Shown here in pieces: positions 14,810 through 19,057 of a stretch of DNA of 34,183 nt (the first letter of the stretch is position 1; every line of letters begins with the position of its first letter). The notes under the pieces are model-generated. The model was not told the origin of the DNA. It saw nothing but the letters and a program-made list of their open reading frames with translations, and did no database searches. Location: assembly GCA_944324055.1 (NCBI GenBank), contig CALUUV010000009.1, positions 1 through 34,183 of the forward strand, given 5' to 3'. The position numbers and the translations under genes were made by a program. Origin of the DNA: Candidatus Gastranaerophilales bacterium (lineage in GTDB: Bacteria > Cyanobacteriota > Vampirovibrionia > Gastranaerophilales > Gastranaerophilaceae).

Positions 14810-16570
14810 ATGCCTACAATCACATTCAGCGGCTTGGCATCAGGCTTGGATACTTCTGCATGGGTAGAAGCATTCGTTTCTGTTAAGCAGACAACACTTA
14901 CGGGATATCAACAATCATTAGAGGCAATTGAAAAGAAACAGGCAACAGTTTCTGAACTTCAAGCATCTTTTAATACATTAAGAACATCATTAGAAAAACT
15001 AACAGATGCTAAGTTTGGTACATCAATGGATTTGTTTGCCAATAATATGGTTACATCTTCTAATGACAAAATATTTACAGCAACAGTAAATAAAAATGCT
15101 GCTCGTTTAACATATGATATAAAAGTAGAGCAATTAGCAACAAAGACATCTGTAAGCTCAGACAAGTCAGTTAGTGCTGTTGCAAATGATGAAACAAAAC
15201 TTTCAGATATAGGTATTACAGAAGGAAGTATGACAGTATATGTTGATGGTGCAAAGAAAACAATCAACATAGAAAAAGATGATACTGTTCAAGATTTAAA
15301 AACTCGTTTCGCTGAAGCAGGAGTAAAAGCTGAAATTGATTCTAATGGTCAATTAAATTTATCTGCTCAAAATGGAACATCTGAAGTATTAGTTGGTGCA
15401 ACAACAGATACTTCAAATATGAAGTCTATTTTGGGATTATCAAAACAAGAAGATGGTACATATAAATCATCATCAGCTTTATATCAAGTAACCGGAACAT
15501 CAAAAATAACAACTCCTGGTATATTTTCAGATGGAAACGGTGGTACAACTTCAATTAAGGAAGGTACTTTCAAGATTGGAGATGCAGAATTTACAATAGA
15601 TGAGAATACAACTATTAATAGTTTAATTTCTCAAATAAACAGTAACAAAGATGCTGGAGCAACTGCATATTGGGATTCAGCAAATTCAAAATTAGTATTA
15701 ACTTCAACAATTGAAGGTGAATCTTATGTAAATGTTGAAGCTGGAACAAGTAATTTTACAGATGTAATGGGCTTTACAACATCTGAATGGGGTTCAGATG
15801 GAAGTCTAGTATCAACTGCATTAAATACTGATAACCAAACACTTGGAGAAAATGCAATATTATATATTAATGGTACTCAAGTTATTTCGCCTACAAATAC
15901 AGTAACAAGTGATGTTTCTCGTTTGGATGGTGTAACTATCAATTTGAAAGGCGTAAGTACAGAAGAAGAACCAAGTACAAAATTAGAAGTTACTCAAGAT
16001 ACAACAGAAGTTGTTACAGCAGTAAAAGATTTTGTTGATCAGTATAATGAATTGATGACAAAATTAGATGAGGTAATGGCTTCAGATGGTAATCTTCATG
16101 GTGATACAACATTGAATTCAATAAAACGTTCAATGAGACAAATGGTAACATCATCAAGCGGATATGGAAATGATACATATACAATGTTGTCTCAAATTGG
16201 TATTTCAACAGCAGACGCTGGTGCAGATATAAACGCTGATACAACATCATTAAAACTTGATGAAGATAAATTAAAAGAGGCATTGTCAAAAGATGCTGAT
16301 GCGGTTAAAAAAGTAATGATTGGAACAACAAAAGAAGAAGGCCTTTTAACCAAGTTTGAAGGTATATTAGATGATGCATTAGCAAGTAATGGTTGGTTCT
16401 CAACAACAACTGAATCAATTCAGAGTGATATGACAAAGTATAATAATAAAATTACAAAGGAAAAACAAAACCTTGCTAATTATAAATCTAGATTAGAAGC
16501 ACAGTTCCAAGCAATGGAAAATACTATTTCAAAAATGCAATCTTCATATAGTAATTTCTTATCAAAATAA
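14810..16570 (+). CDS. fliD: Flagellar filament cap protein FliD
   Basis: The 586-residue flagellar hook-associated protein 2 forms the cap that folds flagellin at the filament tip. The N-terminus MPTITFSGLASGLDTSAWVE is the FliD signature, followed by a helical D0/D1 segment to about 80. The middle is Thr/Ser/Asp-rich beta domain, and the C-terminal FliD_C region ends in coiled coil (about 540-586, KITKEKQNLANYKSRLE onward). The length is in the upper normal range. AAAGGA lies eight bases before the ATG and a sigma-70-type promoter lies upstream. FliD works with flagellin, and this window has two candidates, 23100 and the giant one. fliS, the usual downstream partner, is not here; a terminator follows at once. 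Confidence 0.95.
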   Translation: MPTITFSGLASGLDTSAWVEAFVSVKQTTLTGYQQSLEAIEKKQATVSELQASFNTLRTSLEKLTDAKFGTSMDLFANNMVTSSNDKIFTATVNKNAARLTYDIKVEQLATKTSVSSDKSVSAVANDETKLSDIGITEGSMTVYVDGAKKTINIEKDDTVQDLKTRFAEAGVKAEIDSNGQLNLSAQNGTSEVLVGATTDTSNMKSILGLSKQEDGTYKSSSALYQVTGTSKITTPGIFSDGNGGTTSIKEGTFKIGDAEFTIDENTTINSLISQINSNKDAGATAYWDSANSKLVLTSTIEGESYVNVEAGTSNFTDVMGFTTSEWGSDGSLVSTALNTDNQTLGENAILYINGTQVISPTNTVTSDVSRLDGVTINLKGVSTEEEPSTKLEVTQDTTEVVTAVKDFVDQYNELMTKLDEVMASDGNLHGDTTLNSIKRSMRQMVTSSSGYGNDTYTMLSQIGISTADAGADINADTTSLKLDEDKLKEALSKDADAVKKVMIGTTKEEGLLTKFEGILDDALASNGWFSTTTESIQSDMTKYNNKITKEKQNLANYKSRLEAQFQAMENTISKMQSSYSNFLSK

Positions 16571-16624: not shown

Positions 16625-16757
16625 TGCAGCATGAATTCATAATTTTTTATTAATATATTTCCGGTTTCTGATTTTTGTCGAGATAAAAAGTGTACTTGTT
16701 ACATTTCTTAATATGCTTATCTGGCGCGGGTTTTGGGGGTGCCCCTAGTAGGGGGTA

Positions 16758-16800
16758 TTGACATAAAACTTGAAATGTAATCTTTTTGTAATATTATAAT
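16758..16800 (+). promoter_or_regulatory. Promoter of the lytic transglycosylase gene
   Basis: TATAAT ends at 16800, with TATTAT overlapping at 16792-16797. Upstream, TTGAAA (16770-16775) lies 16 bp from TATTAT or 19 bp from TATAAT. A consensus TTGACA at 16758-16763 is too far from either. Exact pairing of the boxes is uncertain, but a start near 16807 would give a ~90-nt leader. Confidence 0.5.
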
Positions 16801-16806
16801 AGTATA

Positions 16807-16896
16807 AATTTTTCCGTTAGATTCAAATTTGATAGCTGTTAACTAAAGAAGGCGAATCTTTTTCGGAGTCGCAATTTACAATTAAAGAGGATTTAG
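16807..16896 (+). promoter_or_regulatory. Structured 5' leader of the lytic transglycosylase gene
   Basis: AGATTC (16819-16824) can pair with GAATCT (16854-16859), extended outward by CCG (16814-16816) with CGG (16864-16866). The same GAATC segment can instead fold into a local hairpin: GCGA (16852-16855) with TCGC (16869-16872), plus an inner TC/GA. The two folds exclude each other, as in switching leaders. It does not match any riboswitch class that I can recall with confidence. Confidence 0.35.
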
Positions 16897-17577
16897 ATGA
16901 TTAGAAAACTAGTACTGTTCACTACATTGATAGTGATACTACTGTCTACGAAAGTCAATGCTTCTGAAGTACCCGTAAACCATGTAAAAAGCACAATAGT
17001 TCAACATTCAGTTGCACTAGGCGTTGACCCTGCAATAGCTTTATCAATAGCTAAAGTTGAGTCAGGTTATAGACATTCAAGTAGAAGTGCTTATGGTGCT
17101 GTTGGGGTATTTCAACTTATGCCGTCAACTGCGGCAAAATTGGGTGTAAACCCATACCATTTAAGTGATAACATCAAGGGTGGTATTATGTACTACAAGA
17201 TGTTATACAAAATGTTTGGCTCAACAGAGTTGGCATTAGCAGCATATAATGCTGGACCTGCATATGTTTTAAAACACCACTGTGCACCACCTTGCACAAG
17301 AGGTTATGTAGCAAAAACAATGGCAGAGTATTACAGATTAAAGGCAAATCCTGATGAAGCATTAAAAAATAAGGGTAATGTTGTAGGTGCTTCATATCAT
17401 GTAACTAACCCAACTCCAATTACAATCACTTCTCATGGTTCAGTAAAACCAATGACAGCAAGTGTACCAAGAGTAATCAATGATGGTACAAACAGATTAA
17501 TAATAAAATCAGTACCTCAAAATACTCATTCAAATAAGCTACAGGTTAGTATGAATACTCAAGAATCTTATTTGTAA
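16897..17577 (+). CDS. Secreted soluble lytic transglycosylase (SLT domain)
   Basis: 226 residues. A signal peptide (KLVLFTTLIVILLSTKVNA, likely cut after A22) is followed by a Slt-type lysozyme-like domain at about 30-150: AKVESGYR with catalytic E55, GAVGVFQLMPSTA (67-79) and ALAAYNAGP (113-121). The enzyme cleaves peptidoglycan between MurNAc and GlcNAc to 1,6-anhydro products in the periplasm. A CAPPCTRGYV segment with two cysteines (C129, C133) follows the active site. The C-terminal ~75 residues are Thr/Ser/Asn-rich and look unstructured. AGAGGA lies five bases before the ATG. Small single-domain SLTs of this kind often help insert secretion or flagellar machines through the wall. That role is a guess here, supported only by fliD next door. 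Confidence 0.9.
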   Translation: MIRKLVLFTTLIVILLSTKVNASEVPVNHVKSTIVQHSVALGVDPAIALSIAKVESGYRHSSRSAYGAVGVFQLMPSTAAKLGVNPYHLSDNIKGGIMYYKMLYKMFGSTELALAAYNAGPAYVLKHHCAPPCTRGYVAKTMAEYYRLKANPDEALKNKGNVVGASYHVTNPTPITITSHGSVKPMTASVPRVINDGTNRLIIKSVPQNTHSNKLQVSMNTQESYL

Positions 17578-17683: not shown

Positions 17684-19057
17684 TTGAAAGTTTTTAATTC
17701 ATACACAAATAAATTAGAAGAATTTGTACCAATAGAAGATAATAAAGTAAAAATGTATGTTTGTGGGCCGACTGTATATGATAATGCCCATTTAGGTCAT
17801 GCAAGATGTTATATTACTTGGGATGTACTATACAGATACTTAAAGTTTAAAGGTTATGATGTAACTTATTGCCGAAATGTTACTGACGTTGATGACAAAA
17901 TATTAAAGAAGGCTGAAACAGAAAATAAGACTCCAGAAGAAGTTTCAAAATATTGGTATAATAAATTTACTGAAAGTATGAAATCATTGAATAATTTGAA
18001 ACCAGATATTGAACCTTTTGCAACAAAGACATTAGGTGAAATGATTTCAATAGTAAAAGATTTAATTAATAAAGATTTTGCATATGAAGTTGATGGAGAT
18101 GTATATTTTAGAGTTTCAAAATTCCCTCAATATGGTATGCTTTCTAAACAGCCTATTGATTCATTAGTAAGTGGAGCAAGGGTTGAAGTTGGTGATAGAA
18201 AAGAAAATCCGTTAGACTTTACTTTATGGAAACGTGATGAAAAATTCGGTTATAATTCTCCTTGGGGTAAAGGTCGTCCAGGCTGGCATATTGAGTGTTC
18301 TGCAATGAATAGAAAATATTTAGGCAAAACAATTGATATCCATGCTGGTGGAGCAGATTTAATATTCCCACACCATGAGAATGAAATTGCTCAGTCAGAG
18401 TGTGCAAATGGTTGTAAGTTTGTAAATTATTGGATGCATAATGGTTTCGTTACTATAAATAAAGAGAAGATGTCAAAATCTTTAGGTAACTTTTTAACCA
18501 TAGATGATTTATTAAAAACTTATGACGCAAACACAATAAGATTCTTCATTCTAACAAATCATTATAGAATGCCAGTTGAATTTTCAGATGAAGCATTACA
18601 ATCTGCAGCAGCAGGTGTAAAGAGAATGTTGAATGCTAAACAAACTAAAATAAATGAAGATTTTGATATAACAACAACAGAGGAATATAAACAGTTTGTA
18701 GATGCAATGGATGATGATTTAAATACATCTAAGGCTTTAGCAGTATTATTTGATTTAACAAATAAAGCAAATAAAGATGTAGAAAATGCATTTACTGTTT
18801 TATATAAATTAGCAACTTCATTAGGTTTTAGTTTTGAAAAAGCTAAATTATCAGATGAAGAGTTAAAAGAAAAGTTAGCTTTAGTAAGTAAAGAGTTAGA
18901 TAAAAATTACCAATCAATGGATGAAATAATCGAAGATAGAAAACAAGCTAGGGCAGAAAAGAATTGGGAAATAGCAGACAAAATAAGAATTGCCTTAGAC
19001 AATGTTGGTATAGTCTTAAAAGATTCAAAAGAGGGAACGGTTTGGGAAACAAAATAA
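17684..19057 (+). CDS. cysS: Cysteinyl-tRNA synthetase
   Basis: The 457-residue class I synthetase charges tRNA-Cys with cysteine. It carries [15 protein letters not shown] (HIGH-type motif HLGH at 36-39, zinc ligand C27), [10 protein letters not shown] (zinc ligand Cys), [11 protein letters not shown], and KMSKS at 262-266. The length is normal for bacterial CysS. The start is TTG at 17684: it places [14 protein letters not shown] at the N-terminus as expected and is preceded by AGAGGGG. It opens a closely packed co-directional run (cysS, spoIID-like, murJ, tsaC-like). The next gene starts inside its last codons. Confidence 0.96.

Follow-up and report, generated by a model that had tools for sequence, protein, structure and literature searches.

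Does the stretch of about 90 nucleotides (nt) that precedes a lytic transglycosylase gene of Candidatus Gastranaerophilales bacterium fold into an RNA with a function of its own and, if it does, is that RNA a switch? The question concerns positions 16807-16896 of a 34,183-nt piece of DNA (here called the window), which forms contig C9 in a draft genome of 2.07 Mb (GCA_944324055.1). This leader runs up to an open reading frame (16897-17577) that encodes a lytic transglycosylase of 226 amino acids, recognized in a domain search by its SLT domain (PF01464, E value 3.2e-17); the gene and the features of its leader lie on the plus strand. A sequence-only reading of the leader had proposed a small unknown cis-regulatory RNA with two mutually exclusive folds, in which the segment GAATC pairs either with an upstream AGATTC or with its own 3' neighbor. 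Comparison of related leaders argues that the leader is genuinely structured as an RNA and that only the first of these folds, which comprises stems P1, P2, and P3 and includes the AGATTC/GAATC pairing, is supported.

Both segments are indeed present, GAATC at 16854-16858 and AGATTC at 16819-16824, and both pairings of GAATC can be drawn. Folded alone, 16807-16896 yields -12.9 kcal/mol (z score of 0.03; 99 of 200 shuffles are as good); because this single-sequence energy is at chance, only comparison can decide, and the energy fold was dropped as evidence. We therefore rely on an alignment (A2) of 14 leaders, 12 of them distinct, from two genera, the window's own and a sister genus (g35). In the window, P1 joins UUCCG (16812-16816) to CGGAG (16864-16868); P2 joins AGAUUC (16819-16824), the proposed upstream partner, to GAAUCU (16854-16859), which holds GAATC; and P3 joins 16828-16835 to 16843-16850, with 6 of its 8 pairs formed in the window. 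The terminal loop of P3 (16836-16842) carries a GUUAA that is invariant in all 14 aligned leaders, as is the Shine-Dalgarno sequence GAGGA (16887-16891) ahead of the ATG.

Do these stems covary? With the loop gap set manually, the 12 distinct leaders show changes on both sides of a pair, with pairing kept (two-sided changes), in 8 of the 20 pairs of P1 to P3. The stems contribute unequally: P1 is paired in 67 of 72 alignment cells with a two-sided change in 1 of 6 pairs, P2 in 66 of 72 (91.7%) with 2 of 6, and P3 in 71 of 96 with 5 of 8. Five of the six P1 pairs are constant, and the sixth, mismatched in the window, is the one with a two-sided change in relatives; P3 is imperfect, with mismatches at its middle pairs in many sequences. 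Compensation in P2 is exemplified by a G-C pair that becomes A-U in g35 and a U-A pair that becomes C-G in one further leader (L132). The unadjusted alignment, scored separately, retains 18 pairs, 83.3% paired, with 7 two-sided pairs, a result matched by 1 of 500 shuffles, whereas sliding the structure by 1 to 3 columns leaves 0 to 1 two-sided pairs and 45 to 52% pairing; on the weakest measure, the number of further pair types, 54 of 500 shuffles reach the P1-P3 value. All of these counts are of sequences and not of independent events, and kinship alone can push such values above those of shuffles.

The local hairpin that forms the second fold (16852-16872), in which GCGAATCT (16852-16859) pairs with its 3' neighbor GGAGTCGC (16865-16872), behaves differently in the same comparison. 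It is pairable in 96.2% of cells, with a two-sided change in 0 of 7 pairs, a result equal to that of its own shuffles; the sister genus has a deletion at one of the hairpin columns. Modeled occupancy in the window places GAATC in P2 at about 0.92, in the local hairpin at 0.01 to 0.07, and with the ribosome-binding site at 0.0. Thus, checking covariation across orthologous leaders, as had been suggested, bears out P1, P2, and P3 and leaves the hairpin with none.

At the DNA level, the leader and its probable promoter are conserved. Among eight leaders from the window's genus, mean identity per 15-nt block is 0.83 to 0.97 in the leader and 0.13 to 0.75 in the blocks upstream of the promoter, with a single exception of 0.90 at 16702-16716; a recognizable copy of the leader is also present in g35. 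All 8 genomes of the genus carry the transglycosylase gene itself, and so, at an E value of 1e-30 or better, do 144 of the 146 genomes sampled from the family, whose members are associated with the gut and are nonphotosynthetic relatives of cyanobacteria. Is the short form of the leader used elsewhere? A model of it (R1), which spans the downstream motif and the start codon, was run on 60 family genomes, and its strong matches fall solely at the transglycosylase gene: E values of 1.4e-22, 3.2e-21, and 8e-19 in genomes that contributed leaders to the model and 1.6e-6 in a genome of genus g29 that did not. Among the 40 places listed at an E value of 1 or less, 13 are at the transglycosylase start, and the best of the remainder reach 4.7e-4 and 0.006; since the model includes the motif and the start codon, weak matches may reflect those parts.

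How far does this arrangement extend across the family? Between P1 and the ribosome-binding site lies the motif CAAUUUACAA (16872-16881), which recurs in family leaders. From 196 loci, drawn from genomes of the genus, the family, and the sister genus together with 80 named loci, removal of 18 duplicates, 6 that were too short, and 19 without a recognized gene start left 153 distinct leaders. In 91 of them, an exact CAATTTACAA lies no more than 45 nt from the start codon, and looser patterns fit 109 or 112, a few of these doubtful. The idea that the motif is a general context of ribosome sites was rejected, the pattern AATTTACA-N2-12-GAGGATT occurring once on the forward strand of the genome, at the transglycosylase gene; the same pattern written backwards, as a control, also occurs once.

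The P1 frame was assessed by a swap test, in which the 15 nt preceding the motif were paired with the upstream region of their own leader or of other leaders, using 57 representatives below 80% identity. On average, the own partner gives -7.9 kcal/mol versus -6.1 kcal/mol for swapped partners (0 of 2,000 permutations as good), and the result persists in the 50 short forms alone and in 27 leaders below 62% identity. Four controls (two shifted windows, a pre-promoter window, and the ribosome site) gave no signal, at 312 to 1,451 of 2,000 permutations, and the motif itself against the leader was borderline, at 70 of 2,000. For seven of eight subgroups (47 leaders in all) chosen by eye, RNAalifold predicts that a P1-type stem precedes the motif, group B being the exception. 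Neither B nor F has any two-sided change, those of A are few, and those of C and G fall in the interior and not in P1.

Other kinds of leader exist in the same collection. Orthologues beginning ATGGCTCG (L044, L051, L063, L087, and similar loci) have a different leader that lacks the CAAUUUACAA motif, and the order of P1, motif, and ribosome site is therefore not universal. Four genomes (L170, L176, L180, and L183) have another type still, with GCAAACTCCAA, then ACAA, and then GGAGAGAGGATT before the start.

In one genus (g25), the interval from P1 to the motif is far larger. Its 28 distinct leaders (alignment A3; for example, L085:2792-3003) hold 176 to 224 nt there, with long invariant runs, and their interior bears no recognizable kinship to the short form of the window. 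The 42 pairs of the consensus are formed in 97.4% of cells and include 15 two-sided pairs, with 0 of 500 shuffles as high, a test that favors the structure because it was predicted from the alignment used for scoring; slid structures give 32 to 51% pairing and 2 to 7 two-sided pairs. A helix of AUCC and GGAU over the ribosome site is paired in 99.1% of cells, with no two-sided change, and hardly varies. A model built from 19 of the 28 leaders (R2) matches 5 of the 146 family genomes; among 289 genomes from the class, it matches 14 at an E value of 0.01, every one of them in g25. These scans had strict filters and scored few candidates per genome, and some matches are to sequences that went into the model. 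A single match was obtained in 13 of the 14 genomes; the other has two partial matches, each on its own contig, which may represent one copy that was split. In all nine large-form loci that were fetched, the transglycosylase lies directly downstream. Derivation from RNase P RNA, suggested by a resemblance, was rejected after a search at E values up to 10 gave no RNase P match. The conservation of the large form is as expected of an RNA that binds a ligand or a protein, and a search for ligands would best begin with this form.

Is this RNA already known under another name? At gathering scores, Rfam 15 (4,227 families) gives no match in the window or in 20 related loci, and low-threshold scans of the window leader, the 20 loci, and L085 give no same-strand match at a leader. 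At low threshold, the window has 15 weak matches, all outside 16807-16896; among the 20 loci, L190 has a tRNA 5' of its leader, and L144 and L184 account for two weak matches that fall outside their leaders; and L085 has two weak matches on the opposite strand (E values of 1.8 and 7.1). The cyclic di-AMP (c-di-AMP, ydaO-yuaA) riboswitch precedes wall-hydrolase genes in other bacteria, and the sequence-only reading had invoked it as a comparison. As a statement of membership, this does not hold: RF00379, with a model of 134 positions compared with about 90 nt for the leader, matches neither the window nor its leader and is found in none of the eight genus genomes, whereas it matches 2 of 14 control genomes; the diadenylate cyclase domain (DAC, PF02457) is nevertheless encoded in seven of the eight genus genomes, including the window's.

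Both the short and the large forms have the covarying structure expected of riboswitches. Another usual riboswitch trait, a place before several genes of one pathway, was not seen, strong model matches in the genomes searched lying only at the transglycosylase. The nearest published idea that we found is the YjbJ motif (WRC-39-1) of Streptococcus, a candidate RNA found ahead of a predicted lytic transglycosylase and ranked by its authors among weak riboswitch candidates (PMC11109978). There, the YjbJ motif is described as two hairpins with a stretch of U before the second, and its representatives all come from Streptococcus (PMC11109978); its likeness to the leader is at the level of description. 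The open-access literature searched held no description of the leader RNA. The leader is, then, apparently an undescribed structured RNA of a known kind, a modest discovery. The proposal of a small unknown RNA stands as regards conservation, covariation, and the absence of an Rfam match; that it regulates is something we infer.

Upstream, a probable sigma-70-type promoter (16770-16797: TTGAAA, 16 nt, TATTAT) is proposed from a consensus scan and from conservation, the stretch 16762-16806 having a mean pairwise identity of 0.82 to 0.96 among the eight congeneric leaders; the scan alone is weak, since 4 promoter-consensus sites were seen in the scanned region against 5.6 expected. From this promoter, transcription would start near 16803-16806. 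The conserved block noted above at 16702-16716, CATTTCTTAATATGC (identity of 0.90, flanks less conserved), lies about 55 nt 5' of the first promoter hexamer and is a possible regulator site. A perfect palindrome, CCCCTAGTAGGGG (16742-16754), adjoins the promoter on its upstream side; it occurs once in the genome and is absent from 12 other aligned leaders. Downstream, codon identity given the same amino acid, compared as a check on whether regulatory sequence extends into the coding region, is 0.99 at codon 2 and 0.46 to 0.73 at codons 3 to 11, with a baseline mean of 0.47 at codons 31 to 150. The hydrophobic N terminus of the transglycosylase reads as a predicted signal peptide. Its upstream neighbor is fliD (14810-16570), and the downstream open reading frame (17684-19057) reads, in translation, as cysteinyl-tRNA synthetase. 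At the contig edge, 1-6138 is an open frame of at least 2,045 amino acids, its 5' start off the contig, with glycine- and aspartate-rich repeats and a terminal flagellin C-terminal domain (PF00700, E value of 5e-11); it reads like a giant flagellin whose middle is filled by repeats.

What might the leader do? We posit, with a probability of roughly 0.55, that it is a conserved structured RNA of the transglycosylase mRNA whose control depends on folding or on a bound partner. In this model, the leader would open a few bases past the transcription start with the closing stem P1, which would enclose P2 and P3 with its conserved GUUAA loop, and the structure would end just before CAAUUUACAA and the ribosome-binding site. 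The leader would act after transcription: P1 would fix the 5' end and keep the motif and the ribosome site open, so that translation of the wall enzyme and the lifetime of its mRNA would hinge on the leader being folded or bound. It is most likely gene specific, acting on translation or mRNA stability. As for a partner, be it a protein, a small RNA, or a metabolite, we consider one likely in the large form but no more than possible in the short form of the window.

Several observations weigh against this proposal. Energy folding places GAAUC in P2 with a probability of at least 0.9 in only 7 of the 14 leaders, the window included, and at most 0.3 in the other seven (L008 and six of g35), which counts against a very stable fold. 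The motif pattern is not found in 41 of the 153 leaders. In the swap test, the own partner has a median rank of 13th of 57 and comes first in only 6 of 57, so that the P1 signal is a mean effect, and the window's own P1 is undistinguished, at rank 28. The start that sets the leader's 5' end is deduced from the promoter only. By energy, the short form appears to lack a clear expression platform: of four terminator-like sites in the scanned region, none is inside the leader, and a ribosome site hidden across the family was rejected (mean z score of -0.07, with only 3 of 56 diverged leaders below -1.65, and a flat swap test, with 1,451 of 2,000 permutations as low). The leader interior also varies between genera, unlike the aptamer of a classical riboswitch, and the absence of a shared aptamer argues against one such riboswitch.

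Could the leader instead be a constitutive stabilizer or spacer, a hairpin that only shields the 5' end of the mRNA from nucleases and leaves the ribosome site accessible, sensing nothing? In stabilizers of the ompA type, a 5' stem-loop lies near the end of the mRNA and the ribosome site is open, and the window leader would resemble them in both respects, given the start proposed above. P1 and the motif stay constant while the interior differs between genera, and the short form shows no clear switch platform, as a stabilizer would allow. Unlike such stabilizers, however, the leader has a conserved loop and, in one genus, a large conserved interior; the long invariant stretches of the large form and the invariant GUUAA exceed the needs of a plain hairpin. 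For these reasons, we favor control through folding or a bound partner and regard the protective hairpin as a possible but less probable account, a preference that is a matter of judgment.

The switch of the sequence-only reading, in which ligand binding moves GAATC between P2 and the local hairpin, now looks quite improbable. Most sequences can form either pairing, yet only one of the two folds covaries, the hairpin is scarcely occupied in the window, and neither fold covers the ribosome-binding site; on these grounds the switch is unsupported. A translational variant, in which GAAUCUUUUU (16854-16863) leaves P2 to pair with the ribosome site, fares slightly worse. A 10-pair duplex can form in the window, and the site is partially occupied in the sister genus (about 0.6 in L031 and 0.3 to 0.5 in L106); the duplex is nevertheless at chance in the window (z score of -0.56 versus shuffles), where occupancy is nil, and the family-wide values above point the same way. 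Least probable is that the structure is accidental and the leader conserved merely through its promoter and ribosome site, as the chance-level single-sequence fold and the conserved promoter might suggest, against two-sided changes in three helices and a P1 swap test with its controls.

If control does depend on folding or a partner, what kind of RNA is this? We speculate, tentatively, that it belongs to a class of regulatory RNA that has yet to be described and that serves a single lytic transglycosylase gene across a bacterial family, with a constant frame (P1, CAAUUUACAA, and the ribosome site) and an exchangeable interior that is replaced or rebuilt between genera. Such an interior would range in size from the window's hairpin of about 55 nt up to the riboswitch-like domain of g25, at 176 to 224 nt, and the RNA would perhaps sense a wall-derived signal. 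A structured leader unmatched by Rfam 15 where scanned precedes an enzyme found nearly throughout the family and, if it is regulatory, it would offer a handle on cell wall control in bacteria that are mostly uncultured.
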